From Paramicrobacterium chengjingii (GTDB lineage Bacteria; Actinomycetota; Actinomycetes; Actinomycetales; Microbacteriaceae): DNA of 64,000 bases. Below the pieces are notes generated by a model. That model was not told the origin of the DNA and searched no databases. It saw nothing but the letters and a program-made list of their open reading frames with translations. Each line of letters opens with the position of its first letter. Within the stretch, counting starts at the first letter, position 1. Below are positions 47,544-63,339 of this stretch, piece after piece. Position numbers and translations under genes: made by a program. The stretch lies in contig NZ_CP061169.1 of the NCBI RefSeq assembly GCF_011751765.2, positions 372,001 to 436,000 of the forward strand, written 5' to 3'.

Positions 47544-47596
47544 TGAATCGTTTCAGGGGTGCAATTAGACTAGATACGCGTCTATGCAGATGTCAA
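47544..47596 (-). promoter_or_regulatory. Promoter and LacI operator of the rha operon
   Basis: On the minus strand TTGACA (47596-47591) and TAGTCT (47572-47567) are spaced by 18 bases. A near-palindrome TGAAACGATTCA (minus; TGAATCGTTTCA on +, 47544-47555) lies just after the -10 box and 26-37 bases above the rhaT start. Position over the transcription start is ideal for repression. Confidence 0.72.
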
Positions 47597-47621
47597 GGCA
47601 GAATGGCACATGTTGTGGGTA

Positions 47622-47633
47622 TGAGACGTTTCA
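47622..47633. promoter_or_regulatory. Second LacI operator, towards lacI gene 1
   Basis: TGAGACGTTTCA is one change from TGAAACGTTTCA. It lies 78 bp centre to centre from the first site and 43-54 bases above the ATG of the LacI gene at 47676, which fits looping or autoregulation. Confidence 0.65.
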
Positions 47634-47675
47634 CTCACCCGTGTATGCTGGCGGCAGTCACAATGGGAGGCCCGA

Positions 47676-48689
47676 ATGGCAGCGAGTGTTCGCGACGTCG
47701 CCGATAGGGCCGGCGTGTCCGTCGGCACGGTGTCTAATGTGCTGAATCGCCCCGAGCGGGTAGCGCCGACTACCGTCAAACGCGTCACAACGGCGATCGC
47801 CGACCTTGGCTTTGTGCGCAACGATGCCGCGCGCCAGCTGCGCGCGGGCCATAGCCGCAGTATTGGGCTCTCGGTTCTCGACATCGGGAATCCCTTCTTC
47901 ACCGACATCGCTCGAGGTGCTGAAGATCGCGCTCGCGAAGCTGGGCTTTCTGTTCTGCTCGCCAACAGCGACGAGGACTCGAGCCGCGAATCGGAGCACC
48001 TCGACCTCTTCGCAGAGCAGCGCGTCTTCGGCATCCTGCTAACTCCCGTTGGAGCACGGCCCGAAAGACTCGAGTCGCTTCGTCGGCAAGGGACCCCGAC
48101 GGTGCTCGTCGACCGGCAGACTGACAGCGATGACTTCTCGTCGGTTGCCGTCGACGACGTCGCGGGCGGATACATGGCCGTGAAGCATCTGCTCGACATC
48201 GGCAGACGACGCATCGTTTTCGTTGGGGGCCCGGCGCGAATTCGACAGGTTGCCGATCGCCTCGAGGGTGCGCAGAAAGCGGTCGCCGACGTGAGCGATG
48301 CCACGCTCGACGTGGTTCTGCAGGATTCTCTGTCTGTGCTGCAGGGGAGGGCCGCGGGCGAGAGACTGAGCTCTCGCCCCGCGTTGAATCGCCCGGATGC
48401 GGTCTTCGCGGCGAACGATCTGCTGGCGATGGGGCTGCTTCAAGCATTCGCAATGCTCGGCAGCATCCGGGTTCCTGATGACGTCGCACTGATCGGCTAC
48501 GACGATATCGACTTCACGCGAGCCTCCGTTGTGCCGCTTTCGTCAATCAGGCAGCCGAGCCACGAAATCGGGCACTCCGCTGTCGACCTTTTGGTGCGCG
48601 AGAACGACGGGGCGTCTGATTTCGCGCATGAGCAGATCGTCTTTCAGCCGGAGCTTGTTGTGCGCGAATCGACGCACCGCGAGAGCTGA
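47676..48689 (+). CDS. LacI-family repressor 1 (probable rhamnose regulator)
   Basis: This 337-aa protein has an N-terminal HTH (VRDVADRAGVSVGTVSNVLN, about residues 5-24) with hinge helix AARQLRAGHSRSIG, then a PBP-type ligand domain (GNPFFTDIARGAEDRAREAG, GYDDIDFTRASVVPLSSIRQP). The ATG is preceded by GGGAGG. It is divergent from the rha operon, and TGAnnCGTTTCA sites lie between. Rhamnose or a derivative is the likely inducer. Confidence 0.92.
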   Translation: MAASVRDVADRAGVSVGTVSNVLNRPERVAPTTVKRVTTAIADLGFVRNDAARQLRAGHSRSIGLSVLDIGNPFFTDIARGAEDRAREAGLSVLLANSDEDSSRESEHLDLFAEQRVFGILLTPVGARPERLESLRRQGTPTVLVDRQTDSDDFSSVAVDDVAGGYMAVKHLLDIGRRRIVFVGGPARIRQVADRLEGAQKAVADVSDATLDVVLQDSLSVLQGRAAGERLSSRPALNRPDAVFAANDLLAMGLLQAFAMLGSIRVPDDVALIGYDDIDFTRASVVPLSSIRQPSHEIGHSAVDLLVRENDGASDFAHEQIVFQPELVVRESTHRES

Positions 48690-48795
48690 TCTGGGCAGAC
48701 GTGCGAATTGGCACGTTCGAGGGGATGGCGTCAGCTCGATCGCGCACGCATACCTATGATGGTTTGAGCGCATCGCGCGAGAAGGTGAGGGCAAC

Positions 48796-49800
48796 GTGGT
48801 CCGTCCGGTCGGGATTCGAGAAGTGGCCGAACGGGCGATGGTGTCTGTCGGCACTGTGTCCAACGTGCTGAACAAGCCCGACGTCGTTTCGACAAAGACG
48901 CTGGAACGAGTGCTAGCGACAATGGACGAACTCGGCTTCGTGCGAAACGACCTGGCTCGCCAACTAAAAATGGGTGGCGGCACGACGCTTGGAATGATTG
49001 TGCTTAACGTGGCCAACCCCTTCTTTGGTGACCTGGCGCACGCATGCGAGAGCGCGGCAGAAGCACGCGGCCACACGGTGATTTTCGGTAGCAGTGACCA
49101 ACTTGCTGGACGCGAGGATCGCTACATCGATCTTTTCGAGGAACAGCGCGTTCGTGGCATGATCATCGCTCCGCTCGACGGGTCAACCGAGCGGATTGAG
49201 CGATTGATTCGTCGCGGCATGCCGGTTGTTCTGTTCGATATTCATGCAGGCACAGGCGATTTTTGTTCTGTCGCGATGGATGGCTCTGAGGGTGGCTACC
49301 TTGCGACGCGACACCTCCTCGAGGCTGGACGACGACGAATCGCGTTCCTCGGTGGACCCCTCCACCAGGTCGCGGATCGATGGGACGGCGCGCTGAAGGC
49401 CGTCGACGAATTCGACGGAGCGGTACTGACACATATCGACACCGTCGACCAGACGATTGCTGATGGGCGGGCAATCGGCGACCGGCTGGCAGCCATGGAT
49501 CCGGAGTCTCGACCGGACGCGGTGTTTGGGGCAAACGATCTGCTCGCGCTCGGCCTTATGCAGTCCCTCGTCATAGCGGATGGAATCGAAGTTCCGCGCG
49601 ATATCGCCATCGTGGGTTACGACGATATCGACTACGCAGCATCAGCGATCGTGCCGCTGACAACCGTGCGTCAGCCGAAGGAAGCTCTGGCTCACGAGGC
49701 GGTTCGGCTGGTGCTTGACCATGCAGCATCCGGTACCTCGCATGTTCACGAGCACTCACTGCTCCCACCTGAGCTGGTGGTCAGAGCAAGTACTGTCTAA
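48796..49800 (+). CDS. LacI-family repressor 2 (paralogue)
   Basis: This 334-aa protein starts at a GTG. Its HTH (IREVAERAMVSVGTVSNVLN) has the same recognition helix SVGTVSNVLN as repressor 1, and the same length and hinge layout (LARQLKMGGG), so the two probably bind the same or very similar operators. The ligand domain differs moderately. It lies 106 bp downstream of repressor 1 in the same orientation and convergent with a GH78 gene. Confidence 0.92.
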   Translation: MVRPVGIREVAERAMVSVGTVSNVLNKPDVVSTKTLERVLATMDELGFVRNDLARQLKMGGGTTLGMIVLNVANPFFGDLAHACESAAEARGHTVIFGSSDQLAGREDRYIDLFEEQRVRGMIIAPLDGSTERIERLIRRGMPVVLFDIHAGTGDFCSVAMDGSEGGYLATRHLLEAGRRRIAFLGGPLHQVADRWDGALKAVDEFDGAVLTHIDTVDQTIADGRAIGDRLAAMDPESRPDAVFGANDLLALGLMQSLVIADGIEVPRDIAIVGYDDIDYAASAIVPLTTVRQPKEALAHEAVRLVLDHAASGTSHVHEHSLLPPELVVRASTV

Positions 49801-49825
49801 GCTGCACCTTTACTCTTCAGCGTGT

Positions 49826-52800
49826 TCACCAGGTTCGGCCAACTGTGCTGAAGCCTGTTTCTCCGAGCTGGAAGGCCAGCGGAACGTCATCGTCGGCCGC
49901 CCATGAGTATGCAGTTTCTGGCTGTTCTCGCACGCGCACGCCAACTTCTACTGAAGCGATCGTGGTGGACGCGGAAAGGCGAGTCACATCAACACTCACT
50001 CGATTCCACCCGGCGGGCCAGATGGTGCCGACTCCTCGAGCGATGCTCCCGTCGGCGCCGTTGACGATGATGAAGGACTCCATGGCGCGGGCAGGATTCT
50101 TGAGGCAGAGATCGAGCATTGCATAGACAAACCTCGCTTTTCGTCGATCTGCGCCGACGCCGACGACGACTGGGAATCGGGCAGATAATTGTGTTCCTGG
50201 CCCGACGGCAGTAGCTGGGGTGCGGCGAGTTCCTTGCACGAGAGCGACAGGGCCTTCGGGCTGTTCGTGCGGAACCGGCATGCAGTGCAGTCCGGCGGGC
50301 ATTGTGGCGATGGGCAAAGCATCAATGGCGGTGAGTGAATCGGCGGCAAGAGCCCTCGACAGCCAGTCGCGTTCGCCGACAACATCCGGTGACGGGTCCG
50401 GTCGATAGGGAGAGTGCCACGACGACTCGTTCCGCAATGCCGAGCTCTGCGCTCTTCTCTTGATTGTGAATCGTCGGGTGTGCGTACCCGCTCGCAGAAC
50501 TTCTTCGTTGCGACCAGCGAGTCGCAACACAGCTTCGGCCGAGACAGGAACAGTAAGCTCAATGGCTCCTTCGCGTCCATCGAGCCAGTAGCGCACATGA
50601 ATCTTGCCTCGGACCGTGTGGGTTGTGAGCGACAGCGTGTCGATGCCTGTGACAAATTGTGGCTCGACAGCGAAACGCGACCACCCAGCTCGCACCGGGC
50701 GCACGCCCGCAAGCCACTGCCACGCCCAGCCCGCGACGGGGCCACCGAGACCGATATGGTCGAGCGACCCGGTTCCGGTGTTTCCCGGGTCGATCCACCA
50801 GCACTCCCAGAACGTGCCTGGTCCGTGATGGAGCATCGCTCCGATCCCTGGCTCGGCTGATTGATGGAGCGAGTCGAAAATCGACTGCGAATGATCCGTC
50901 CGAGCGAGCGCCCTCACTGTCGTGCGCGTCGTGGCAAAGCCCGAGGTCAGGCGGTCTCCTCGTGCAGAGACATCTTCAGCTATACGATCGGCCGCGCGGG
51001 ATGCCGCGGCCCCTGAGAGCACGGCTGACTCGACGGCAATCGCATTCGCTGCCTGTGTGCCGTTTCCGAACACGTCACGATCAGCATCGTAAAACGCGGC
51101 GCGTGCCGCCCGGCGCAACCCATCGGCTTGTTCTCGCCTGATTGCCGCCGCAGCCGAATCTCCGGTGTCCTCTTCAAGCAGGGCGAGCGACTCGAGACAA
51201 TCGATCACCGCGCCAGTGTGGTGCAGCGGCGGCGGAGTCTGTGTAAGTGCAAGCCAGTCGGATCCGTAACTGTGGGGAGCCATGTCGATGACCCCGTCGT
51301 CGCCACGCAGCATCCATTGATAGTCTGCCCAATCTCGCAGGGCAGGAAGGGTCTCGCGCACTACTCTCTCGTCGCCGTAATGCAGCCAATGATTGAGGAG
51401 CACCCGTTGGAGCGCGCCGCCCCAGACTGGATCCGGACTGATCCGGGGCCGTCTGATGTCGGGAGAGATCGCCGGGATGCTGCCGTCAGACTGTTGGCTC
51501 GTGCGCAGATCGGCGAGCCATTTCGTGAAGAAAGCCTGCATGTCAAAAGCAGAGAATGAGAACTCGGCCGCCGAAGCCGTATCTCCGGTCCACCCAGATT
51601 GCTCACGGGTGGGGCAGTCCTCAGGAATTCCGTGCAGATTGTTGAGCAGAGTCCGCTGTGCAGTGAGCGAGAGTGCGGCTACGCGTGAATCATCGGTCTT
51701 GAGCTCGCTGATGCTTTCAAGATCCGAGTGAAGACTCCATGCTTCAACTCGTAGCTGGGCGTCGGAGGGAAGGCCGAGAATCTCGACGTAACGAAAGCCG
51801 TGATAGGCGAACCATGGCTCACAAATGGCGTGCGGGAATGGTCCGGCGAGGTACTCGACAACCTGCCGCACACGACCATTGTCGAACGGCATCGTGAGGT
51901 TCGTCGTGTCGAGTCGGCCGTTTTCGTCGAGATGCTCGCCATGAATCACTCTCACGATGGCGTCCGGCGGAAGCGGCGACAAGAGAGTGATTCTCGTTCT
52001 GCCGGCGATATTCGTTCCGACGTCGTAGACGCGACTCGTGGCCGAGCGGGTGACTTCTGTCACAGCCTGCGGTGAGACGCGATGAACGGCAGGGGACGGA
52101 TCAGGGGTAACGATTGCCGGTGGTGTGGTGAACGATGACGGGGCTGTGTTCGCCTCGCATACGCACAGCGCATCCGACGTATCGAAATCGATCTCCTCGA
52201 CTGTCCTTTCGTGTCGCTCGAGGTAGAAAGGCTCATCGTGTGTGATTTCGCTGGCAGCGGCGGTCATCTCCGGGCCGGTGCCAGCGCGGATGATGGTGCC
52301 GTCAGCCGCGTGCGCGACGAGCTCTCCCAGCAGTCGTGGATCTTCGCCAGAGCGCGCCCATTCGCCCAAACCGAGCGCGAAGTCGATGGAATTCTCTCCG
52401 GCGATGACGAGGTCGGTAACGTCGTAGCTTCTATACAGTGCCCGACAGAGATCGGTTCGCGACGGATCTGCGCAGTCGGCGTTCACAGCAACTCCGTTGA
52501 CGGATGCCCGTACAAGCCCCTGGGCAGTGAGGTGGAGTCGAGCCCGCTCGATTGTGCCGTCAAGGTGCATTCTGCGGCGCAGCACAGTGAGCGGCGGGTG
52601 AGATACCCAGCGCGCACTCCAATCGTCGAGCGTCCACGGGCCCGTCTCGAAGCGCGATGGTTCAGCCCACTCTGACCATTCGCCCGTTTCATCTCGCACC
52701 TGAACGGTCCAGGCATACAGCTCATGGGCGTCAAGCTCAGTGTCGAGTTCTACGAAAGGATCACTGGACTCGACGGCGCCGCTATCGAAGAGGTGTGGGC

Positions 52801-53101
52801 CGTCGTTGGATCGAGGATCGACGAGACCTGTGCTCGCGCGCACGACGAATGCGGTCTGCTGCTGATTGTGGCGGTCTAGGGGAGTCACCCACGAAAGTCG
52901 TGACCTTCTCTCGGATGCGAGCGCAATGAACCGGTCCACAGATCGACGCGACGATGTCGTGCCGGGACCGTGCGCATTGTCAGTGCGTCGTCCGTCGACT
53001 CTCAACGATGTTGGTACCGGACTGGTCACGATGGCCCCTTCGCCGCTGGTCACAAACAGTGACCCTCTGAGAATTCTCTCGGCCGCGAATGAATATTTCA
53101 T
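49826..53101 (-). CDS. GH78 alpha-L-rhamnosidase with extra C-terminal domain
   Basis: This protein of about 1091 aa has no signal peptide. It has N-terminal beta domains (DWSARWVSHPP, RARLHLTAQGLVRASVNGV near residue 186), the GH78 acid region HGIPEDCPTREQSGWTGDT near residue 492-510, and the late general base in TFWECWWIDPGNTGTGSLDH. The (alpha/alpha)6 core ends near 860, and about 190 residues follow (LRNESSWHSPYRPDPS to the end) that look like a further beta domain. It hydrolyses terminal alpha-L-rhamnose, probably in the cytoplasm on imported rhamnosides. ATG 53101 and GTG 53104 are both possible starts. Confidence 0.93.
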   Translation of the reverse strand: MKYSFAAERILRGSLFVTSGEGAIVTSPVPTSLRVDGRRTDNAHGPGTTSSRRSVDRFIALASERRSRLSWVTPLDRHNQQQTAFVVRASTGLVDPRSNDGPHLFDSGAVESSDPFVELDTELDAHELYAWTVQVRDETGEWSEWAEPSRFETGPWTLDDWSARWVSHPPLTVLRRRMHLDGTIERARLHLTAQGLVRASVNGVAVNADCADPSRTDLCRALYRSYDVTDLVIAGENSIDFALGLGEWARSGEDPRLLGELVAHAADGTIIRAGTGPEMTAAASEITHDEPFYLERHERTVEEIDFDTSDALCVCEANTAPSSFTTPPAIVTPDPSPAVHRVSPQAVTEVTRSATSRVYDVGTNIAGRTRITLLSPLPPDAIVRVIHGEHLDENGRLDTTNLTMPFDNGRVRQVVEYLAGPFPHAICEPWFAYHGFRYVEILGLPSDAQLRVEAWSLHSDLESISELKTDDSRVAALSLTAQRTLLNNLHGIPEDCPTREQSGWTGDTASAAEFSFSAFDMQAFFTKWLADLRTSQQSDGSIPAISPDIRRPRISPDPVWGGALQRVLLNHWLHYGDERVVRETLPALRDWADYQWMLRGDDGVIDMAPHSYGSDWLALTQTPPPLHHTGAVIDCLESLALLEEDTGDSAAAAIRREQADGLRRAARAAFYDADRDVFGNGTQAANAIAVESAVLSGAAASRAADRIAEDVSARGDRLTSGFATTRTTVRALARTDHSQSIFDSLHQSAEPGIGAMLHHGPGTFWECWWIDPGNTGTGSLDHIGLGGPVAGWAWQWLAGVRPVRAGWSRFAVEPQFVTGIDTLSLTTHTVRGKIHVRYWLDGREGAIELTVPVSAEAVLRLAGRNEEVLRAGTHTRRFTIKRRAQSSALRNESSWHSPYRPDPSPDVVGERDWLSRALAADSLTAIDALPIATMPAGLHCMPVPHEQPEGPVALVQGTRRTPATAVGPGTQLSARFPVVVGVGADRRKARFVYAMLDLCLKNPARAMESFIIVNGADGSIARGVGTIWPAGWNRVSVDVTRLSASTTIASVEVGVRVREQPETAYSWAADDDVPLAFQLGETGFSTVGRTW

Positions 53102-53131
53102 CACGGTAGCCGAACGAACCTCGACTTCAAC

Positions 53132-53175
53132 TTGACAAGTTTCTGCAACTCACACATCATAGCTGAAAGGTTTCA
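53132..53175. promoter_or_regulatory. Divergent GH78/importer promoter with LacI operator
   Basis: TTGACA (53132-53137) is spaced 17 bases from CATCAT (53155-53160) for the + strand. TGAAAGGTTTCA (53164-53175), a perfect palindrome except for the central GG, follows directly over the expected start site. The same operator sequence occurs at 62214-62225. Confidence 0.65.
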
Positions 53176-53265
53176 ATTATGAGTATCTGCACCGATGATG
53201 CTGTCGGAACATGCGCTCGCACCGAAACAGTCCCGCTTTAAACACTCACGTTAGGAAAGCTGACA

Positions 53266-54612
53266 ATGACGTCACACACAGCGAGGAATTCGCGCCGTGC
53301 GATTGCTGCACTTGCTGCAGCGATCATGATTCCAGCGCTCGCCGCGTGCGGAGGAAGCTCCGCATCCGGGAGTGGTGGAGCCGGCGAAGTCGAGGGCAGT
53401 TCCATCGTCCTCACGACAATTACCGGACTTGAACCGCAGTTTCAAAAGTACGCAGACGCGTATATGGAGGAATTCCCCGATCGCAAGGTCGAGGTTCGCA
53501 GCACGACAGACGATGCTGCCGAGTACGCGCAACAGCTTGCGACCGCGCGATTGAGCGGTGAGCTGCCCGATGTCTTCTTCAACGTGGACTTTCTGGCTGA
53601 CACGCTCGCCGCTAATAAGGTCACTCTCGACTTGGCGCCAGGTCTGAAAGAGGGAAAGCTGGGAGATCTCAATGCTGACTCCTTTCTTCCGCAGTTCGTC
53701 GGCCAGTATCGCCCACTCGCCGATCAAGACAAGATCACGGGATTGCCGGTAAGCGCTGACTCGGTCGGGCTCTTCTACAACAAGTCGCTTTTCGACGAGC
53801 TCGGAGTAACGGAGTACCCGGAAGCGGACTGGACGTGGGACGACATGTATCGCGTCGCGGAAGAGATTAAGGACAAAAGCGGCGACACCGTGACGGGGCT
53901 TGCTGCGCCGCTTGGCGACGGATCTGACCAGATCGTGTTCGGTCCTGTCATCAACGCGTTCGGCGGGACGGTATTTGACCCGGAGACAGGGAAGTCTGGA
54001 ATTGGGCAGCCCAAGGCCCTCAAGGCGTGGGAACTCCTTCTTGGCGCGTACGGAACGGCATCAGGCCCGTACACCACAACAACAGACGACCCATCGCTCA
54101 AGTTCGAATCCGGAAACGTGGCAATGGCCATCGCGTCTCGCGGAGCGGTGCCCGGACTTCAGACGACGCTCGTTGATGACGAGTGGGACGTTCAGAAGAT
54201 GCCAACGATCAATGGCAACTCAACAGCGGGCGGTGGATCGTACGGGCTCTCGATCGCGCAGACAAGCGAGAGCCAGGATGCCGCATGGGCGTTCTTGGGC
54301 TGGTTTTACGACACGGATGCTGGAATGAAGGTAGCGCAGGACGTCGGTGGGGTCATCCCTCCCACGGACGATGGCATTGACAACGGAACGTGGAAAGACG
54401 GCGCTGCGCCGCCAGAGCACATTGCGATCTTCGGTGATTCTGCTCGTGAGGCCGTGCTCATCGCGCAGATGCCCGGCTCGTCGTCGACCACCCTGCAAGA
54501 GGCAACGAAGAAGGCGACCCAAGAAGTGGTGCTGAACGGTATGTCGATCGAAGAAGCGTTCGGTGTGGCAGAGAAGGCCGTCAACGAAGCCATCGAGAAG
54601 CAGAGCAAGTAA
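53266..54612 (+). CDS. CUT1-type oligosaccharide-binding lipoprotein
   Basis: This 448-aa protein has a lipoprotein signal (IMIPALAAC, Cys28) and the solute-binding motif VGLFYNKSLFDELGVTEYPEADWTWDDM near residue 165. It starts the rhamnoside importer operon. Placed between two GH78 rhamnosidases, it probably binds rhamnose-containing oligosaccharides or glycosides. A hairpin follows the stop. Confidence 0.92.
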   Translation: MTSHTARNSRRAIAALAAAIMIPALAACGGSSASGSGGAGEVEGSSIVLTTITGLEPQFQKYADAYMEEFPDRKVEVRSTTDDAAEYAQQLATARLSGELPDVFFNVDFLADTLAANKVTLDLAPGLKEGKLGDLNADSFLPQFVGQYRPLADQDKITGLPVSADSVGLFYNKSLFDELGVTEYPEADWTWDDMYRVAEEIKDKSGDTVTGLAAPLGDGSDQIVFGPVINAFGGTVFDPETGKSGIGQPKALKAWELLLGAYGTASGPYTTTTDDPSLKFESGNVAMAIASRGAVPGLQTTLVDDEWDVQKMPTINGNSTAGGGSYGLSIAQTSESQDAAWAFLGWFYDTDAGMKVAQDVGGVIPPTDDGIDNGTWKDGAAPPEHIAIFGDSAREAVLIAQMPGSSSTTLQEATKKATQEVVLNGMSIEEAFGVAEKAVNEAIEKQSK

Positions 54613-54619
54613 GGGGCAC

Positions 54620-54648
54620 CCGGGCGGGGCGAGGCTGGTCCCGCCCGG
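54620..54648 (+). terminator. Hairpin between binding-protein and permease genes
   Basis: The arms CCGGGCGGG (54620-54628) and CCCGCCCGG (54640-54648) form a 9-bp perfect stem with an 11-base loop, seven bases after the stop codon. The position mirrors the hairpins at 20068 and 42805. Confidence 0.65.
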
Positions 54649-54671
54649 ACTCCTGATCATCGGAGATCGTA

Positions 54672-55631
54672 TTGGCAAATTCAGTTCTTGACACACAAAC
54701 GACACGAGCCCGCAAGAACAACATTCATCGCGCTCCTGACAAACCTCACGGTCGTCGCCGAGACAAACGAATTGATGCGCTCACAGCGGCAGTGTTTCTC
54801 GCGCCGGGGATGCTTGCATTCGCCGTCTTCGTGATTGTCCCCGCACTCGGCGGCCTTGTGCTGAGTTTCTTTCAATGGGACCTGTTCGGAGTTCCGACAT
54901 GGGTCGGCCTCGAAAACCTCATCCGGCTCTTCAGCGATGCGCAGATGTGGCAAGCATTGTGGGTCACCGTACTGTTCGTGTTGCTCGGCGTCATCCCCAC
55001 GATCATGGTCGGGTTCGTTCTCGCGGTTCTCATCAATACGAATCTGCCGGGTATCGGGGCGATCCGCGTTCTCTATTTCGCACCCATGATCGCTTCCGCC
55101 GCTGTCGCCTCGCTCATCTGGGCCAATTTGTACAGCTCGCGGGGACTTGTGAACCAGGTACTCAGCTGGATCGGCGTGCAAGGGCCAAACTGGCTCTCTG
55201 ACCTGACCTGGGCTCGCCCGGCACTCGTCATCATGATGATCTGGAGCGCGCTCCCTATTGTCATCATCCTCTATCTGGCCGGCTTGCAACGGGTGTCTGA
55301 CGACATCTATTCCGCGGCCTCACTCGATGGGGCAAGTAAATGGCGGCAAATCTGGTCAATGACCTGGCCGAATGTCTGGGGCACGACGCTGCTCATCGCC
55401 GTACTGCAGACGGTGGGCTTTGTGAGTGGATCGTTCGAGATCGCGCTCATCATGACGGACGGCGGTCCTCTGGGCACAACGCAATCAATCGCACTCTATT
55501 CGTACAAGGTCGCCTTTTTTGAACGAGACATCGGCTATGCAAGCGCGCTTTCGCTGTTCCAACTCGTGATCATGATCGCCATTGTCATCCTCGTGCGTGC
55601 GATCGTGCGATTCCGAAAGGAGCGTGTCTGA
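54672..55631 (+). CDS. ABC sugar permease (MalF-like) of the rhamnoside importer
   Basis: This 319-aa protein starts at a TTG with GGAG six bases upstream and has six membrane segments after a basic N-terminus. The EAA loop AASLDGASKWRQIWSMTWP lies near residue 215. The final TGA overlaps the ATG of the next permease by one base. No ATPase is encoded in the operon, so a shared ATPase is presumed. Confidence 0.92.
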   Translation: MANSVLDTQTTRARKNNIHRAPDKPHGRRRDKRIDALTAAVFLAPGMLAFAVFVIVPALGGLVLSFFQWDLFGVPTWVGLENLIRLFSDAQMWQALWVTVLFVLLGVIPTIMVGFVLAVLINTNLPGIGAIRVLYFAPMIASAAVASLIWANLYSSRGLVNQVLSWIGVQGPNWLSDLTWARPALVIMMIWSALPIVIILYLAGLQRVSDDIYSAASLDGASKWRQIWSMTWPNVWGTTLLIAVLQTVGFVSGSFEIALIMTDGGPLGTTQSIALYSYKVAFFERDIGYASALSLFQLVIMIAIVILVRAIVRFRKERV

Positions 55632-56458
55632 TGCGAACCTCGCGCACAGGCATCATCGTCCGTTACGTCGCGATCGTTCTCGGCGGCCTCATCATGGCGA
55701 TCCCGCTGCTCTTCATGGTCTCTGGTTCGCTCAAGTCGGCAGCAGAAGTGAAAGCCTTCCCTCCGGTGCTCGTACCAGAGACGCCGATCTGGCAGAACTT
55801 CGTTGACGCCTGGAATTTTTTGACACCGCAGGTTATCGGAAATACGTTTATCTTCAGTCTCGGCGTCGTCGGGCTGCAGCTACTCTTGTCGTTGCCCGCT
55901 GCTTTCGCGCTCGCGAAGATCCCGTTCAAATGGTCGGCAGCGATACTCGCGACACTCGTTGTCCCCATGATGATCCCGGGTAATCTCACGCTCATCCCAC
56001 TCTTCGTCGTGACGTTCGAATTGGGGTGGCTCAATACCTACGCCGGGCTCATCATCCCGATGGCCGCCCAATGTGCATTCTCAATACTGCTCTTTCGACA
56101 GTTCTTCGCCACCTTGCCCTCGGGACTCATTGAAGCGGCACGCATCGACGGCGCAAGCTGGTGGAGAGTGCTGAGATCCATCGCGCTTCCTCTGGCCAAA
56201 CCGGCTCTCGCCACGTTCTGCTCGATCAGTTTCCTGACCGCGTGGAACATGTATATCTGGCCGCAGGTCATTGCCCCAAACCCGGCCAACAGGGTGATCA
56301 ACGTGGCTCTTGCTCCGTTGGCCGGCGGCGAGAATTCCGTGATCTCACCGGCTATCGGACTCGCCGGTGCGGTTATCGCGATGCTGCCGGTGCTCATCGT
56401 TTTCATCGTGTTTCAGAAGTGGTATCTCAAGGGCATCGCCGGAACGGGGCTCGAATGA
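55631..56458 (+). CDS. ABC sugar permease (MalG-like) of the rhamnoside importer
   Basis: This 275-aa protein has six membrane segments. Its EAA loop (EAARIDGASWWRVLRSIALP) lies near residue 170. Its start and stop codons overlap the neighbouring genes, and the GH78 gene follows at once (ATGA). It is the second permease of the importer. Confidence 0.93.
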   Translation: MRTSRTGIIVRYVAIVLGGLIMAIPLLFMVSGSLKSAAEVKAFPPVLVPETPIWQNFVDAWNFLTPQVIGNTFIFSLGVVGLQLLLSLPAAFALAKIPFKWSAAILATLVVPMMIPGNLTLIPLFVVTFELGWLNTYAGLIIPMAAQCAFSILLFRQFFATLPSGLIEAARIDGASWWRVLRSIALPLAKPALATFCSISFLTAWNMYIWPQVIAPNPANRVINVALAPLAGGENSVISPAIGLAGAVIAMLPVLIVFIVFQKWYLKGIAGTGLE

Positions 56459-59061
56459 TGCCTCCGACAGGGGAGTCCGCTCTGGCTGAAGCGAATCCCC
56501 GGCCATCGGGCGTGCCGAGCGCTCGCGTCACGCGACCGCGCGCGGAGTACCTCGATGATGCGTTTGGGGTCGGCACGGCCAAGCCGCGGCTATCGTGGCG
56601 CATTGAATCCGCGTCGGCGGAGTGGCGCTCGGATCGATACAGTCTGCGCATCGAGAGAGACGACGGGACGACGGACGCCGTCGTTGTCGATTCCGACGAG
56701 CAATTGTACGTTCCGTGGCCGTTCGCCCCATTGGTGTCTCGCGAGCGAGTCTGGGTAAGCGTTCGTGTCCGAAGCGGTGACGGCGTCTGGACTAACGAGA
56801 GTGAGTCTCTCGCCATCGAGGCCGGACTATTGGAACCAGGCGACTGGGTGAAAAAGCTCATCAGCCCGACGTCGATCGCAGGGCTCAACGATGCTGCTCC
56901 GTTGATGTTCGGGAGCGCCGATCTCGACGCACCGCCGGCGTCGGCGCGGCTGTACCTCACAGCTCACGGCATCGTCGAATTCACTATCAATGGGCGCCAG
57001 GTCGGTGACGACGTGTTCGCTCCCGGATGGACTGCCTACGAGAAGCGTCTGCGTTATCGGAGCTACGACGTCACATCGCTCGTGCACAAAGGGGCGAATG
57101 ATCTGCGCGCTCTCATCGGAAACGGCTGGTACCGCGGCCAGCTCGTGTGGCCGGGCAACCGATCGAGCTACGGAGATCGCCTGGGTGTGCTCGCGCAACT
57201 CGAGGTGAACTTCGCAGATGGTACGCGAAAAGTCTTCGGAACGGATGCTTCATGGGGCGCCGTGCCCAGTAGCATCCTCTTCGATGACTTCTATGACGGG
57301 CAACGTCGAGATTTGAGGATCGCAGATTCTCCGGAGGGCAAGGTCGTCGACACAGTCGATGAACTCGATGGAGACTTCGCACGACTCATTGCGCCATCCG
57401 GGCCCCCTGTGCGAGTGACCGAAACGCTCCAGGCTGTGCAGCTTCTCACGACGCCCTCGGGTAAGACAATCGTTGATTTTGGTCAGAATCTTGTGGGGTG
57501 GGTGCGTCTTCGCGTGAGTGGAGAGGCGGGTGCCCGCGTCAGCGTTCGACACGCAGAGGTTCTTGAACATGGGGAGCTTGGCATTCGTCCACTCCGCAGT
57601 GCTCTCGCGACGTGTGAATATATTCTCAATGGCACGCCCGGGGAGGTCTTGCAACCGACCTTCACCTTCAACGGGTTTCGGTATGCGGAGCTCTCGGGCG
57701 TCCCCGAGCTGGTGCTCGCCGACGTTGAAGCGCTCGTACTCGGCACAGATCTTGTGCGCACGGGGTGGTTTGAATCGTCTGATCCGCGGGTTAATCGTCT
57801 TCATGAGAACGTCGTGTGGAGCACTCGCGGCAACTTCCTTGATGTCCCCACCGACTGCCCTCAACGCGATGAGCGCCTGGGATGGACGGGAGACCTTCAG
57901 GTCTTCGCCCCCACCGCGACGTTCTTGTTCGACACAGCGGGGTTCCTGTCGGGCTGGCTCGGCGACCTCTCAGCGGAGCAGAAGCCGGACGGCGGGGTGC
58001 CATACGTGATTCCCGATGTTCTGCGTGAAGCTGACCCGGCAGCCGCTGCGTGGAGCGACGCCGCGACGATCGTCCCCGAGGCCGTGCACTCTGCATACGG
58101 CGATGTGGATGTGCTTCGGCGCCAGTACTCGTCTATGCGAGCGTGGGTTGAGAAGGTCCGCGGTATCGTCGGGCCGGACCTTCTGTGGAACACGGGTGCT
58201 CAGTTCGGGGATTGGCTCGATCCGACTGCCCCTCCAGACGACGCGTCCCGCGCGCAGGCGGATCCGGATGTTGTCGCTACGGCATATTTTGCTCGCTCGG
58301 TCGGCATTCTTGCGCGTACCGCGGCAACACTCGGTCTGCGGGCGGACGGTGAGGACTACGCGCAGCTTGAAAAACGTGCGCGCGCCGCGTTTATCGCAAC
58401 GTACGTCAGCGACGACGGGCACGTTCGCAGCGACTGCCAGACCGTCTACGCGCTCAGCATCGTCGGCGATCTCTTCGAGAGTGAACGACAGCGCACTGGC
58501 GCAGGTCAGCGTCTCGCCGAGCTTGTGACCGCAGCCGGATTCCGCGTCAGCACGGGATTCGTTGGAACTCCTCTCATCTTGGATGCGCTTTCGATGGCGG
58601 GATACCCAGAGCTGGCATATCGGATGCTTCTCGAAGAGTCGTGCCCGTCGTGGCTATACGCGGTTTCAATGGGTGCCACGACCGTCTGGGAGCGTTGGGA
58701 CTCAATGTTGTCGGACGGGTCGATCAATCCCGGCTCGATGACCTCGTTCAACCACTATGCCTACGGGGCCGTTGCCGACTGGCTGCATCGTTCCGTCGCC
58801 GGGCTGGCGCCGAGTTCTCCTGGCTATCAGACTGTTGACGTTCGGCCGCTCGTCACCGGTGATCTGTCGAGCGCGTCGGCTCGCCATCTCTCGCCATATG
58901 GCGAGATCGCGGTGGGCTGGAAGCTCGACCAGGGGCAGGTGGACCTCACGCTGACAATTCCCTACGGCGTGACCGCCAGGGTGTGGATGCCTGGTGCTGC
59001 AGACGCTGAGATAGTGGGCAACGGCAGCCACCGGTTCAGCTCGCTGTTTCAGCAGGTGTAA
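56455..59061 (+). CDS. GH78 alpha-L-rhamnosidase (second copy)
   Basis: This 868-aa protein has no signal peptide. N-terminal beta-sandwich domains (PRLSWRIESASAEWRSDRY, RLYLTAHGIVEFTINGRQVG) are followed by the classical catalytic signature FLDVPTDCPQRDERLGWTGD near residue 465, which contains the acid residues, and the late Glu in TTVWERWDSMLSDGSINPG. It shows the complete standard GH78 architecture and length. It is translationally coupled to the importer, and probably cleaves alpha-L-rhamnose from imported glycosides. Confidence 0.95.
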   Translation: MMPPTGESALAEANPRPSGVPSARVTRPRAEYLDDAFGVGTAKPRLSWRIESASAEWRSDRYSLRIERDDGTTDAVVVDSDEQLYVPWPFAPLVSRERVWVSVRVRSGDGVWTNESESLAIEAGLLEPGDWVKKLISPTSIAGLNDAAPLMFGSADLDAPPASARLYLTAHGIVEFTINGRQVGDDVFAPGWTAYEKRLRYRSYDVTSLVHKGANDLRALIGNGWYRGQLVWPGNRSSYGDRLGVLAQLEVNFADGTRKVFGTDASWGAVPSSILFDDFYDGQRRDLRIADSPEGKVVDTVDELDGDFARLIAPSGPPVRVTETLQAVQLLTTPSGKTIVDFGQNLVGWVRLRVSGEAGARVSVRHAEVLEHGELGIRPLRSALATCEYILNGTPGEVLQPTFTFNGFRYAELSGVPELVLADVEALVLGTDLVRTGWFESSDPRVNRLHENVVWSTRGNFLDVPTDCPQRDERLGWTGDLQVFAPTATFLFDTAGFLSGWLGDLSAEQKPDGGVPYVIPDVLREADPAAAAWSDAATIVPEAVHSAYGDVDVLRRQYSSMRAWVEKVRGIVGPDLLWNTGAQFGDWLDPTAPPDDASRAQADPDVVATAYFARSVGILARTAATLGLRADGEDYAQLEKRARAAFIATYVSDDGHVRSDCQTVYALSIVGDLFESERQRTGAGQRLAELVTAAGFRVSTGFVGTPLILDALSMAGYPELAYRMLLEESCPSWLYAVSMGATTVWERWDSMLSDGSINPGSMTSFNHYAYGAVADWLHRSVAGLAPSSPGYQTVDVRPLVTGDLSSASARHLSPYGEIAVGWKLDQGQVDLTLTIPYGVTARVWMPGAADAEIVGNGSHRFSSLFQQV

Positions 59062-59067
59062 ATGCGT

Positions 59068-59100
59068 GTGTGGCGAGACTCGTTTCGAGTGCCGCCACAC
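59068..59100. terminator. Bidirectional hairpin terminator
   Basis: Outer arms GTGTGGCG (59068-59075) and CGCCACAC (59093-59100), plus inner arms ACTCG/CGAGT around TTT, lie between the convergent GH78 gene and the Tat-exported enzyme gene. Confidence 0.75.
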
Positions 59101-59120
59101 AACGATGCAGCTCAAACGGG

Positions 59121-62120
59121 CTAGAGAGAACTCGCAGCCAATCGCACAGACTCTCCCTTCGCGTACGTCTCGTCAAATGACACGCCATCACCGGTTATCG
59201 TCACCGTGTCGTGGGTTGCCACGATGTTCAGTTTCTTCCCGCGCCAGCGAAGGTGTTTCACTCCGGCATCCGTTAGGCCCGATGGCAGATTCGGTGTGAT
59301 CACGAGTGAATCAGGCTCTGCCTCGACACCGACGAACGCATAAAGGAAGCTGGCCGGGACAAGCCCGCTCTCGGGAAAAGGCACGTCTGTTCCTACCGAC
59401 GAACCAGCTGTGGAGCCGTCGACAGTCGATTCTCCGCGGAACAGGGGAGCGCCGCCGCACAGATGATCGGGCTCTTTCCAACGATCCAGAATCGCGGTCA
59501 TGCGCGCCCATGCATCATCGGCCGACTGGTACTTCGCGCGTGCTATCACGTCAAAGCCAGACGTGTACAGAATTGCTCCACCATCCTGCACTTCATCTCC
59601 CCACGGAGTGGTGAGGTGGGTGAGGAAGAACCAGTAGCTGTTTCGCCTGGTTGTCGATCGCGGAGCAAACACCCACTTCGAATAGATGTCTGCCGGCCCT
59701 TCGACGTGATCGTTGAGCGCCGCGATGAATCGGGTCGAAGCGTCTGTTGCAGGGTTCCCGTCCACGTAGGCAATTGCGCCGTCCACGGATGTTGCAGACG
59801 ACCACCAGGCGAGAGACCCTGTCACGTCGGAGACCTCCAGGTAGTAGATTCCCGGCTCTTGAGGATCAACATCGATGTGTGCGACTCGCCCGTCGGACCA
59901 ATCACTGAACTGCTGGTTGGCGACCGTGGTCTGGGAACCCCCGGGCAGACCCTTGTAGAGCGTCATCGTGAACGTCGAACCACGATGGCCGAAGGTAGGG
60001 AATCGGGCCGCGACGCTCGTGAAGGCAGCATCGGCGGTGAAGCTCTGGCCAAGGGAGTGACCAGGCTCAATCGTGGGCGCGAGTCCGCCGCTTTCGATGA
60101 GCACGACGGGTTCCTGAAGCTCGGTATGACCGTTGTCGAGCCAGTCGAAGATGCGCGTAGCCATGTCGTCGGTCGGCAGCCCGAAGGATGCCGCTTCGAG
60201 ATTGACATACGTTGAGCCGTAGTCGTGCACGACACCGTCAACGTCGATGGTCTGGACATATCGGCCATCGGCATCGTTCCAGAACGTGGTGTTGTACCGC
60301 TTCTTGACGAGCTTTCGCAGCGCGCGCAGCCGCGCAGCCCTTCCTCTTTCTCCTGAGTGCTCCTCGAGTTGGGCAACAGCTTCGAGGGCGCCATAGAAAT
60401 AGGCATTGAGATACGCATCCTTGTACCCAAACGACGTGACATCCCAGTAATTCGAGGGCAATGCTCCGTCTCTGCCGTCATGGTCGGGAGACGTGATCGT
60501 GATTACTCCCTTTTTGCCGTCGAGGGAGTCGATGTAAAAATCAATTGCTTGTCTGACGCGCGGCATCATTGTCGACAGAAAGTCGGAGTCTCCTGTCCAT
60601 GAGTAATAGCGCCACGCACCGAGTACGTACAGTGCATTCGACGTGAAGTGTCGCGCATCGAAGAGTTCCGGGTCGGGAAACGGCCAACCTTGCGAGTCGG
60701 GCCACGACCATACGTAGCCATCGTCGTCGAGCGAGGTTCCGAGGAGCGAATCAGCCTGAGCGCCCGCCCCCGCCGTGCCAGTCCAGTCAAGGATGCGCCC
60801 TTCCCAGTCTGCCCATGCCATCGCGTGCCCGTCGAACCGGTAGCTCAGAGCGCGCTCCCAGTAGAACGTCGAGAGTTGCGCGGCCCTCGTAACATCCGAC
60901 GCTGTAAACACAGGGAAGATCTCGGGCAGGGCATCCGAATGCGTCGTGACGTCGATAGCGATGGTGCGCGAGATGGTCTGTGCCGGCTCAGCGCTGCCGG
61001 AGTTGAGCGCAAGAGCCATTGTCTCGGCAGTCATCCCACCGTCGATGACCGGTGCGTCTCCGGTGAACCGCAAATCGTACGGGCCGCTGCCCGTGCCAGA
61101 GATGGAGTCTGAACCCGACACCGGTGTGGTCCACGCGTCGCGGCGTTTCAATTGCTCAGACGGCATGTAGTCTCCTGCATTGCCATAGAAGCGCTTGAAA
61201 CGGATGCCGTCGGCATACTCGGTTGAATAGCCGTCCTTGACCCACGACGTGTTGAGAGTCAGCCCCGGGTCTGGTCGAGCATCCGTCTGCCACGTGATGT
61301 CGTACGTCGATGTTAGTGAGCCACCGTCGAGTTCCAGGTCCCATGTTGCGATCCCGTCAACATTGAAGCCGACGACGTCGAGTGTCATCGTGCGATCTGC
61401 CTGCACCTCCCGGTCGCCGTATGCTGCGCCGCCGAGGTCGACTGTTGTCTCGTCGAGGCTGCTCCACCACCCAGGAGTGCCCGTGCTGTCGGAAATCTCC
61501 ATATAGTAGGTGCCGGCAGATTGGGCGGGAACTTCGAGGTAGGCCCATCCGTTGTCTTGAACCGGGTTGATCTCGCGCCGGGCGATCTCCGTGAGGGTGG
61601 TGTCCGGCGTTCCGGAGTACAGGGCTATCGTGACAGTGGAGTTCTGGCTGCTCCAGGTGGGGAGTTGGGCCCCGACCTTTGAGAAACGGTACATCGACGT
61701 TGTGAATGACTGACCTAGTGTGTGCCCGGAGCTCAGTGGCACGGGAGAGTCCACCTGGTCTTGCTTGACCTCCGATGCCGATGGCAGCTGGATGCCGCTG
61801 ATGCTGAGCTTTTTGTCTGTCGCTGTGCACGTCACATCGGGGTTAAACCTGGCGTCGAAGAAGTCAGTTGCTCCAACGAACACAGAGGTGAATGTTGACG
61901 GCTCAAACGCACCCGCACCGCTTGGATCGCATGCGAATTGAGTGAGCTTGCCGTGTGCGCCGGAGATGCTGATGTATCCGTTCGTTAACTGATACGTTTC
62001 AGCTGCGGCAGCAGTGTGCTGTGGGCGCGCGAGTCCGGTCGCGGCGAAGAGGATGCCGCCGCCGGCTCCCTGGAGAAATTTCCTCCGATTGGTTCTGAAG
62101 CGCATAATGCCATTGCCCAT
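59121..62120 (-). CDS. Tat-exported six-hairpin glycosidase with duplicated beta module
   Basis: This 999-aa protein has a twin-arginine signal (NRRKFLQGAGGG at residues 11-22, Ala-rich cleavage region near 35-42). Two related modules of about 92 residues occur at about 130-221 and 683-775. Both begin with a GH-LGQSFT motif and end YYxEVSD/EISD plus WWSS. The middle (about 410-680) is (alpha/alpha)6-like, with DHDGRDGALPSNYWDVTSFGYKDAYLNAYFYG. The second module is inserted into the enzyme core. The family is not certain. The operator at 62214-62225 ties it to the rhamnose system. It may release rhamnosyl units outside the cell. Confidence 0.8.
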   Translation of the reverse strand: MGNGIMRFRTNRRKFLQGAGGGILFAATGLARPQHTAAAAETYQLTNGYISISGAHGKLTQFACDPSGAGAFEPSTFTSVFVGATDFFDARFNPDVTCTATDKKLSISGIQLPSASEVKQDQVDSPVPLSSGHTLGQSFTTSMYRFSKVGAQLPTWSSQNSTVTIALYSGTPDTTLTEIARREINPVQDNGWAYLEVPAQSAGTYYMEISDSTGTPGWWSSLDETTVDLGGAAYGDREVQADRTMTLDVVGFNVDGIATWDLELDGGSLTSTYDITWQTDARPDPGLTLNTSWVKDGYSTEYADGIRFKRFYGNAGDYMPSEQLKRRDAWTTPVSGSDSISGTGSGPYDLRFTGDAPVIDGGMTAETMALALNSGSAEPAQTISRTIAIDVTTHSDALPEIFPVFTASDVTRAAQLSTFYWERALSYRFDGHAMAWADWEGRILDWTGTAGAGAQADSLLGTSLDDDGYVWSWPDSQGWPFPDPELFDARHFTSNALYVLGAWRYYSWTGDSDFLSTMMPRVRQAIDFYIDSLDGKKGVITITSPDHDGRDGALPSNYWDVTSFGYKDAYLNAYFYGALEAVAQLEEHSGERGRAARLRALRKLVKKRYNTTFWNDADGRYVQTIDVDGVVHDYGSTYVNLEAASFGLPTDDMATRIFDWLDNGHTELQEPVVLIESGGLAPTIEPGHSLGQSFTADAAFTSVAARFPTFGHRGSTFTMTLYKGLPGGSQTTVANQQFSDWSDGRVAHIDVDPQEPGIYYLEVSDVTGSLAWWSSATSVDGAIAYVDGNPATDASTRFIAALNDHVEGPADIYSKWVFAPRSTTRRNSYWFFLTHLTTPWGDEVQDGGAILYTSGFDVIARAKYQSADDAWARMTAILDRWKEPDHLCGGAPLFRGESTVDGSTAGSSVGTDVPFPESGLVPASFLYAFVGVEAEPDSLVITPNLPSGLTDAGVKHLRWRGKKLNIVATHDTVTITGDGVSFDETYAKGESVRLAASSL

Positions 62121-62213
62121 GTGAACTCCGTTGTTCGAGTGTTGTGTAGGACACCAAGATTCGGGTGTCACTCTGTGCCAACTTCTGATTGCGTGTGGAT
62201 GCCGCATCAAAAT

Positions 62214-62258
62214 TGAAAGGTTTCAGAGAACTTTGTCAGAAGCCGGGCGGGCTGTCAA
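62214..62258 (-). promoter_or_regulatory. LacI operator and probable promoter of the Tat enzyme
   Basis: TGAAAGGTTTCA (62214-62225) is identical to the site at 53164. On the minus strand TTGACA (62258-62253) lies 27 bases upstream of the operator; the -10 box is weak (CAAAGT). It is 94-105 bases above the start codon. Confidence 0.6.
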
Positions 62259-62379
62259 GCACCTCACGTGGTTTCGCTGCATGACCGCGCCCGCAGGTTG
62301 TCGTTCTGGCAGCAGCGCTGTGTAGCGTGCTTCTATGTGGTCTGAGTCGATGGTCGGGCCGCACGCAACAACGTCAGGG

Positions 62380-63318
62380 TCACGTTTTTGATGACATTGC
62401 GGACAACGGGGTCGCTAGCCAATCGGCGATTCGTTCTATGCTTCTCTGGGCATGGGGGCTGTGCGGTCGATCAAGATGGCCGTGCAGCGTCTCCGGCTCA
62501 AGGGCGAGGTGCACGTGTACACCAGCATCCCTGGCTTGCCTGGCGAATTCCTCACCCGACAGGCGATGCTCGTCGTACTCAGAATTGAGAATGAAGATGG
62601 GTGCCATCCCATGAAGCTGCGCATTGCCGGCAAAGGCATACGGGTCACCACGCGGTTGCTCGGGGCCAAGGTAGTTGGCAACGATCTGATTGACAAGGCT
62701 TTGGGGAAAACGCGCCTCGGAGGGAGCCAGGGTGAGAGTCTTCTGCAACTCGGCAGACGCTTCTGGGAGCACCTCGTGCACGAGCGGATAGACAAGCACG
62801 GCCGATGTGGGACGAGGGCCCTGGCCGTCGCGAAGTCTGACGGCAACCCCTGCCGCCAGGTTTGCGCCCGCACTTGCTCCGCCGATGTGCATGAGCTTCG
62901 AATCGATTCCGAGCTCGTCGATTGCCCAATTCCATGCGTCGAGAAGGTCGATTGACGGCACAGGGAAATGTGCACCGAACAGCGCCTTGGTGTACTCGAC
63001 AGACAACACGGTGTACCCGCGCGCTGCGAGAGCGAGGGCCACCCAGTTGCTCTCGGGCATATCGAGGTTTCCGCCGACGAAGCTGCCGCCGTGCGCCCAT
63101 ACGAGAGCACCGCGCGGGGTGCTCGCCGGCGTATAGAGGCGAGCGGGTAGTTCGCCGCTCTGTGCGGGAATGAGCCGAGGCGTCACCGTCACCTGATTGA
63201 GCTCCGGATACCGTTCGATGAGCGATGCTGTGCCGACATCGGTACGCGGGTCAGGGTCAGATGTACCACTTTCCAAGCTGCGGATAGTTTCGGCGAATGA
63301 ATCAGCGGCGTCGTCCAT
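62380..63318 (-). CDS. Alpha/beta-hydrolase (HSL-type esterase)
   Basis: This 312-aa protein has the oxyanion HGG motif (WAHGGSFVGG, near residue 74), the nucleophile in GGASAGANLA near residue 148 and a late Asp/His (EYDEHRLSG, ETLHGHLD). This is the hormone-sensitive-lipase branch of esterases. No signal peptide is seen. An operator at 63328-63339 overlaps the ribosome-binding region. It may deacylate rhamnosyl esters or glycoconjugates after import; the substrate is unknown. It is upstream of the Tat enzyme on the same strand. Confidence 0.87.
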   Translation of the reverse strand: MDDAADSFAETIRSLESGTSDPDPRTDVGTASLIERYPELNQVTVTPRLIPAQSGELPARLYTPASTPRGALVWAHGGSFVGGNLDMPESNWVALALAARGYTVLSVEYTKALFGAHFPVPSIDLLDAWNWAIDELGIDSKLMHIGGASAGANLAAGVAVRLRDGQGPRPTSAVLVYPLVHEVLPEASAELQKTLTLAPSEARFPQSLVNQIVANYLGPEQPRGDPYAFAGNAQLHGMAPIFILNSEYDEHRLSGEEFARQARDAGVHVHLALEPETLHGHLDRPHSPHAQRSIERIADWLATPLSAMSSKT

Positions 63319-63327
63319 GCCATTCCT

Positions 63328-63339
63328 TGAATCGTTTCA
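63328..63339 (-). promoter_or_regulatory. LacI operator next to the esterase start
   Basis: TGAATCGTTTCA is identical to the operator in front of the rha operon (47544-47555). It lies only 10-21 bases above the ATG of the esterase and adjoins its AAGGA ribosome-binding site. Confidence 0.62.

Follow-up and report, generated by a model that had tools for sequence, protein, structure and literature searches.

A candidate LacI-family operator shared by rhamnose and rhamnoside genes in Paramicrobacterium chengjingii

Genes and operator sites of the rhamnose locus

A stretch of 64,000 nucleotides from Paramicrobacterium chengjingii (contig NZ_CP061169.1), here called the window, was analysed for the regulation of its L-rhamnose and rhamnoside genes. 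The window corresponds to bases 372001-436000 of a one-contig genome of 3,622,515 bases (G000). Five promoters of these genes carry nearly identical 12-bp sites, which are probably the operators of one LacI-family regulon.

The leftward, minus-strand genes read as the actinobacterial L-rhamnose (rha) operon. Its first gene encodes a sugar ABC transporter ATPase (46004-47518, PF00005 in two stretches). It is followed by two ABC permeases (43942-46007, PF02653, on the overlapping mechanical open reading frames 43942-45495 and 44979-46007), a RhaS-type rhamnose-binding protein (42845-43900; TIGR02637, 371.9 bits vs a cut-off of 342.25), the L-rhamnose isomerase RhaI (41604-42770; TIGR02635, 633.2 bits vs 531.35), and the rhamnulose-1-phosphate aldolase / dehydrogenase RhaEW (39522-41558; TIGR02632, 1025.7 bits vs 567.75). 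The last gene encodes an FGGY carbohydrate kinase (38012-39427, Pfam FGGY_N and FGGY_C), by its position the putative rhamnulokinase RhaB.

On the plus strand lie LacI 1 (47676-48689), the probable rhamnose repressor, and LacI 2 (48796-49800), the probable repressor of the rhamnoside cassette. Both carry the helix-turn-helix (HTH) domain PF00356 and the periplasmic-binding-like effector domain PF13377. The cassette consists of the alpha-L-rhamnosidase GH78a (49826-53104, minus strand; PF17389, PF08531 and PF05592), an oligosaccharide importer made of SBP1 and two permeases (53266-56458, plus strand; PF01547 and twice PF00528), and a second alpha-L-rhamnosidase, GH78b (56455-59061, plus strand; PF17389, 397 bits), whose start was picked by eye. 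No signal peptide was evident when the N-termini of GH78a and GH78b were inspected by eye. Two further minus-strand genes encode a putatively Tat-exported six-hairpin glycosidase (TatGH, 59121-62120), with a twin-arginine N-terminus seen by eye, and an HSL-family esterase (Abhydrolase_3, PF07859; 62380-63318) without an evident signal peptide.

The perfect palindrome of the operator family is TGAAACGTTTCA. Each of the five sites is one base off it, making them near-palindromes, and their coordinates, letters and intergenic positions agreed with a preliminary description of this DNA. The rha operon operator (47544-47555, minus strand) reads TGAAACGATTCA in the sense direction, and the LacI 1 promoter operator (47622-47633, plus strand, TGAGACGTTTCA), which is weaker in relatives, lies 78 bp from it. 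These two sites sit between the RhaEW/RhaI/RhaS operon and LacI 1, as would be expected of an Actinomycetales RhaR regulon. A single site in the divergent region between GH78a and the SBP1 importer (53164-53175, plus strand; TGAAAGGTTTCA in the SBP1 sense) points to co-regulation of importer and rhamnosidase. The TatGH operator (62214-62225, minus strand) reads TGAAACCTTTCA in the sense direction, and the esterase operator (63328-63339, minus strand; sense TGAAACGATTCA) lies 9 bp 5' of the start codon. No tandem repeats were found between 39000 and 64000.

A sixth site, absent from the preliminary description, is TGATACGTTTCA at 61990-62001 (minus strand), within the TatGH coding sequence; its function is doubtful. 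The sister genome G004 has the same 12 letters, but as 15% of the gene's 12-mers are likewise unchanged, the match says nothing about function. It was rejected as a second operator.

Specificity and recurrence of the operator

A genome scan with the motif had been proposed in the preliminary description. In the whole 3.62-Mb genome, sites with at most one mismatch to TGAAACGTTTCA (near-perfect sites) occurred at six places, all six within window positions 47544-63339 (~16 kb). Exact TGAAWSGTTTCA had four matches genome-wide, again all in that stretch. Equal frequency of the motif in coding DNA, named beforehand as speaking against a regulon, was not seen: five of the six near-perfect sites are intergenic, and none lies elsewhere in the genome. 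A control scaled by words (37/631) gave a chance estimate of ~2 near-perfect sites per genome and ~0.01 in a 16-kb stretch. The loose pattern was far less specific. With up to two mismatches to TGAAWSGTTTCA, both strands of the window held 18 matches vs 9.5 expected, an enrichment of about twofold that was reached by 2 of 100 shuffles. Up to two mismatches to TGAAACGTTTCA gave 59 places per strand in the genome vs 40 for the reversed control, and this closeness means that only the near-perfect sites are informative. All six sites are even palindromes in form, as in LacI-family operators, with a CG centre in four and a GG/CC centre in two. For the LacI family, 1173 transcription factors with a CG centre and 1251 with even palindromes are reported (PMC4052901).

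The promoters put the operators on the expected transcription start or shortly past it, in line with the earlier prediction that several sites cover it; this geometry fits steric repression. In the rha promoter (TTGACA-18-TAGTCT), the operator lies 35 bp past TTGACA and 11 bp past the -10 element. TTGACA precedes the operator by 26 bp at SBP1 and by 27 bp at TatGH, and the esterase has TTGACG-17-TAGGCT in both G000 and G004 (by eye). Across genomes, the promoters counted were those possessing the operator. Of 12 TatGH promoters, 11 had TTGACA 26-30 bp 5' of the operator; of eight SBP1 promoters, seven had it 24-29 bp 5' of the operator. TTGAC[ACG] and TANNNT, spaced by 16-19, were present in 10 of 17 promoters of the rha class and in none of the six GH78a promoters. 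A generic promoter scan stayed at background level (4 found, 3.4 expected), its top row being the SBP1 promoter.

Besides the own genome, 20 of 39 relatives had a match to LacI 1, and neighbourhoods of 20-50 kb were taken for 15 of the 20. In the sister genome G004 the entire locus is present; rha, GH78a/SBP1, TatGH and the esterase have their sites there, and LacI 1 has a two-mismatch version. Three more genomes of the genus (G001, G002, G003) and three of the family (G005, G006, G022) have LacI 1, the rhamnose genes and the operator, without a LacI 2 orthologue. A spacing of 77-78 bp between the rha and LacI 1 sites is kept in G004, G001 and G003, where the LacI 1 copy has two mismatches. 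The fetched LacI 1 neighbourhoods of G010 and G024 held no rha catabolic genes. Site identity, genome-wide specificity and recurrence across genera together support a single rhamnose regulon, as had been proposed from the sequence.

TatGH was found in 9 of 398 family genomes and is 90% identical in Paramicrobacterium fandaimingii. It was compared with 14 loci of other actinobacteria, obtained in one scan of named genomes (62-73% identity). These loci, 305,743 bp in all, contained 35 near-perfect sites; the reversed motif had none, and 40 permuted palindromes had two in total. An operator lay at most 200 bp upstream of TatGH in nine of the 14 loci, vs none for the reversed motif and for every permuted control, and it is also present in G000, G004 and G108. 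A GH78 homologue was located within 10 kb in 12 of the 14, the exceptions being Glaciibacter and a 6.8-kb contig. Microbacterium sp. STN6 has rhaI, an esterase homologue and rhaEW immediately after TatGH, and one operator each before TatGH and before rhaI. Recurrence of the operator across genera thus supports the proposed role of the enzyme in rhamnoside use and probably ties it to a rhamnose diet.

At E ≤ 0.01, the TatGH profile matched just two PDB sequences, each of which carries the name rhamnosidase. A whole-model fold search returned a mixed six-hairpin list, from which the substrate could not be named. The 41 homologues in the search are mostly labelled, where at all, as 'MGH1-like', 'GH116 family' or hypothetical. 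A beta-rich domain occurs in two copies within TatGH (59778-61772; 41% identical over 93 residues), and in the model the second copy is flanked by helical segments of the catalytic region. An intragenic TGAAACGTTACA occupies one and the same position in two TatGH genes (L087:3518 and L090:11802), which is probably coding conservation.

The esterase is probably linked to rhamnose use as well, with a weaker case than that of TatGH. Its operator was seen in the own genome and G004 only. Orthologues (E ≤ 1e-75) were found in 7 of 396 family genomes, and the six genomes with at least 59% identity (G000, G004, G011, G108, G207, G405) are all among the nine with TatGH. A 46% match in G284 had no near-perfect site. 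More distant homologues (39-45%) lie between rhaI and rhaEW in six of 15 rhaI loci (L174-L188), from five genera: G011, G108, Glaciibacter, Agromyces, Humibacter and Promicromonospora (L177, L180, L181, L183, L184 and L186). None was found in that position in eight further genomes. Such esterases are thus a recurrent, not universal, part of rhamnose operons.

One-base flaws of the promoter classes

The base by which a site departs from the perfect palindrome tended to go with the promoter class. In the sense direction, SBP1 promoters had TGAAAGGTTTCA in 7/7 genera counted, all in the same orientation, GH78a promoters TGATACGTTTCA in 6/6, and rha promoters TGAAACGATTCA in 8/11 (two reversed, one perfect). 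The variants at TatGH promoters were mixed. When variants were shuffled among classes, the observed concordance was reached in 0 of 100,000 tries; this result is descriptive, since the class limits (distance, identity) were fixed after the data were seen and the permutation ignores kinship and gene transfer. Two Microbacterium genomes, G011 and M. murale, were entered as two genera.

The counts leave out rha operons without a near-perfect site (G012, G035, G028, Nonomuraea, Streptosporangium and Kribbella catacumbae) or with a site more than 70 bp away (Agromyces and Humibacter), and Kribbella soli, which has TGAAACCTTTCA at the ATPase gene and was itself not on the label list. Also left out were one additional Agromyces site upstream of TatGH, the GH78a of this genus (by rule), and GH78a homologues below 41% identity, including those of Nonomuraea and Streptosporangium (other variants) and a second copy in G011 (36%, TGATACGTTTCA).

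The DNA around the sites was not similarly kept. Ungapped flanks had a mean identity of 0.25-0.36 vs 0.89-1.00 for the sites, with Glaciibacter entered twice in the rha set of these averages. After gapped alignment of the SBP1 flanks, 19 of 21 pairs were within the range of 100 shuffles. The exceptions were Paramicrobacterium-Kribbella (left flank) and Agromyces-Promicromonospora (right flank clearly, left by one point); the left flank of Paramicrobacterium-Humibacter just equalled the best shuffle. With most flanks at chance level and the sites kept, the flaw appears to have been retained where neutral DNA was randomised. At SBP1, this would hold for about five lineages that appear independent.

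The SBP1 flaw was present in eight of the nine genomes with an SBP1 orthologue of at least 60% identity; the ninth, Kribbella catacumbae (L092), had no site. It was found in none of the five genomes with SBP1 below 60% and is therefore not general. Among these five, Nonomuraea (56%) had no near site, G591 (58%) and G929 (54%) had other two-mismatch variants, and G011 (42%) and G207 (40%) had TGAAACGTATCA. G671 (SBP1 71%) has the flaw in promoter DNA that is the same as that of Occultella, and it was not counted.

The pattern is thus post hoc and limited to close orthologues. Tentatively, and with somewhat less than even confidence, the flaws of SBP1 (TGAAAGGTTTCA), GH78a (TGATACGTTTCA) and rha (TGAAACGATTCA) can be regarded as selected, conserved set-points that are read by two paralogous repressors; the importer promoter, for example, may be leakier. 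Natural lac operators are asymmetric, and by analogy with them set-point tuning is our best guess for the flaws. Should the flaws indeed be under selection, the relative set-points of promoters in a local regulon could be read from the asymmetry of their operators.

Repressors, rival explanations and known systems

Among the 24 LacI-family HTH domains of the genome, only LacI 1 and LacI 2 had the helix VSVGTVSNVLN with the hinge GFVRNDxARQL (the remaining 22 were compared by helix alone). Their recognition helices are identical, and their hinge residues differ slightly (RAG vs KMG). Because one recognition helix is common to both, both probably read the site; this is the most economical explanation, and we lean towards it. 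LacI 2 orthologues occur near the SBP1/GH78/TatGH cassette in several other genera. When seven SBP1 promoters were aligned with gaps allowed, the only conserved blocks were TTGACA and the operator with the following A. Occultella and Promicromonospora were initially considered LacI 2-only genomes (one match each, E ≤ 1e-70). This was withdrawn, as both genomes encode a diverged LacI 1-like protein (44-50% identity, same helix) near rhaI and an operator copy, which leaves no LacI 2-only genome for comparison. In Kribbella (L081, L092), LacI 2 (84-85%) and the importer permeases (80-85%) are much closer to the window than is rhaI (68-69%), which suggests a transfer of the rhamnoside cassette.

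Taken together, the sites are best explained as operators of a LacI-family regulon for L-rhamnose and rhamnosides, to which we assign a probability of roughly 0.85. The gene families, the promoter geometry, and the identity, conservation and specificity of the sites within the genome are established directly; binding, repression, the inducer, the activities of TatGH and the esterase, and the dual LacI reading are inferred. When no inducer is present, LacI 1, and probably its paralogue LacI 2, would occupy TGAAACGTTTCA-like operators and, at or just past the transcription start, hinder RNA polymerase; an inducer derived from rhamnose would free the operators. The exported TatGH would then trim rhamnosides outside the cell, and the SBP1 importer would carry the trimmed products in. 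In the cytoplasm, GH78a and GH78b would liberate L-rhamnose, while the esterase may strip acyl decorations. Rhamnose itself would be taken up by the RhaS transporter and catabolised by RhaI, RhaB and RhaEW.

Several observations weigh against this explanation. Five of the 14 TatGH orthologues (two Kribbella species, Streptosporangium, Nonomuraea and Pseudolysinimonas) have no site within 200 bp, the closest upstream site in Nonomuraea being ~340 bp off. G028 has LacI 1 (54%) and a rha operon, with no site within 40 kb even at two mismatches, and G012 and G035 have two-mismatch sites only. All five esterase orthologue loci of other genera (59-71% identity) are without a near-perfect site, although one of them, the second copy in G207, has a two-mismatch site. 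For the esterase, its own operator here and in G004 and the homologues in rha operons speak for the proposed role in rhamnoside use, the missing operators in other genera against it. Finally, the operator letters are those of the E. coli Cra operator, so the sequence alone cannot name the regulator.

The last point leads to the idea that a global regulator of the Cra/FruR or CcpA type owns the sites, TGAAACGTTTCA and TGAATCGTTTCA both being contained in the Cra consensus and the fruB operators of E. coli (PMC11157272). Such a regulator would be expected to have sites elsewhere, and none with at most one mismatch was present outside the rhamnose cluster. Moreover, LacI 1 (124.3 bits) and LacI 2 (95.4 bits) stayed below the cut-off of 385 of the Cra model NF008452, and neither reached the NCBIfam ccpA cut-off, which makes this explanation very improbable. 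Chance clustering of a common short palindrome might account for the twofold enrichment of the two-mismatch pattern in the window, but it is already refuted by the confinement of all near-perfect sites to 16 kb, their recurrence across genera and controls at or near zero, and its likelihood is negligible.

The other two explanations concern the division of labour between the repressors. LacI 1 (RhaR) might bind all sites alone, with LacI 2 having another operator or acting as a co-sensor. For rha-type sites LacI 1 is enough, as the genomes lacking a LacI 2 orthologue show, and the LacI 1-like proteins of Occultella and Promicromonospora, with no LacI 2-only genome found, agree with this. We nevertheless regard it as unlikely, as LacI 2 orthologues adjoin the cassette in several genera, the aligned SBP1 promoters leave no candidate for an alternative LacI 2 site, and the recognition helix of LacI 2 is the same. 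A split is also conceivable, with LacI 1 reading the sites of rha, LacI 1 and the esterase (CG-centred), LacI 2 those of SBP1 and TatGH (GG/CC-centred), and little crosstalk. In G000 and G004, SBP1 and TatGH account for all GG/CC-centred near-perfect sites. However, in Agromyces and Promicromonospora the promoters of TatGH and GH78a have CG-centred sites close to LacI 2 orthologues, and the recognition helices are identical, with hinges that differ slightly; a split appears more doubtful still. The preferred explanation places uncharacterised exported six-hairpin glycosidases and an HSL-type esterase in a defined sugar pathway, where their substrates become testable.

A regulon of this kind is already known, having been predicted in 2013. 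In Actinomycetales, a LacI-type RhaR was predicted to control together the breakdown of rhamnose, the import of rhamnosides and the rhamnosidases (Rodionova et al. 2013, PMC3870299); the genes named are RhaFGHJ, the importer rhiLFG, the rhamnosidases ramA/rhmA, and RhaEW. What the two share is the predicted LacI-family control over how L-rhamnose and rhamnose oligosaccharides are taken up and catabolised. The word 'esterase' does not occur in the main text of that study, whereas an esterase operator is a feature here. Its account of the RhaR regulon, in the sections considered here, likewise has no exported MGH1-like glycosidase and no two LacI paralogues on one operator. A full-text literature search for the exact operator 12-mers returned no rhamnose paper, as judged by title. 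Chloroflexus also has a separate LacI-family regulator for its rhamnoside cassette, RhmR, beside RhaR; there, RhaR belongs to the DeoR family and has a motif of its own (PMC3870299), whereas the two LacI paralogues of the present locus seem to have one operator in common. E. coli Cra (FruR) shares the 12 letters, including TGAATCGTTTCA at fruB distal, but belongs to another phylum and regulates more than 100 genes (PMC11157272), in contrast to the rhamnose cluster, beyond which no near-perfect site was found. In E. coli GntR and IdnR, paralogous LacI-family repressors are again found, one recognising the sites of the other, for gluconate and idonate genes (PMC4052901) instead of rhamnose genes. 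What the present locus adds to these known systems is TatGH, the esterase, a pair of LacI paralogues that have the same reading head, and promoter-specific flaws in the operator.

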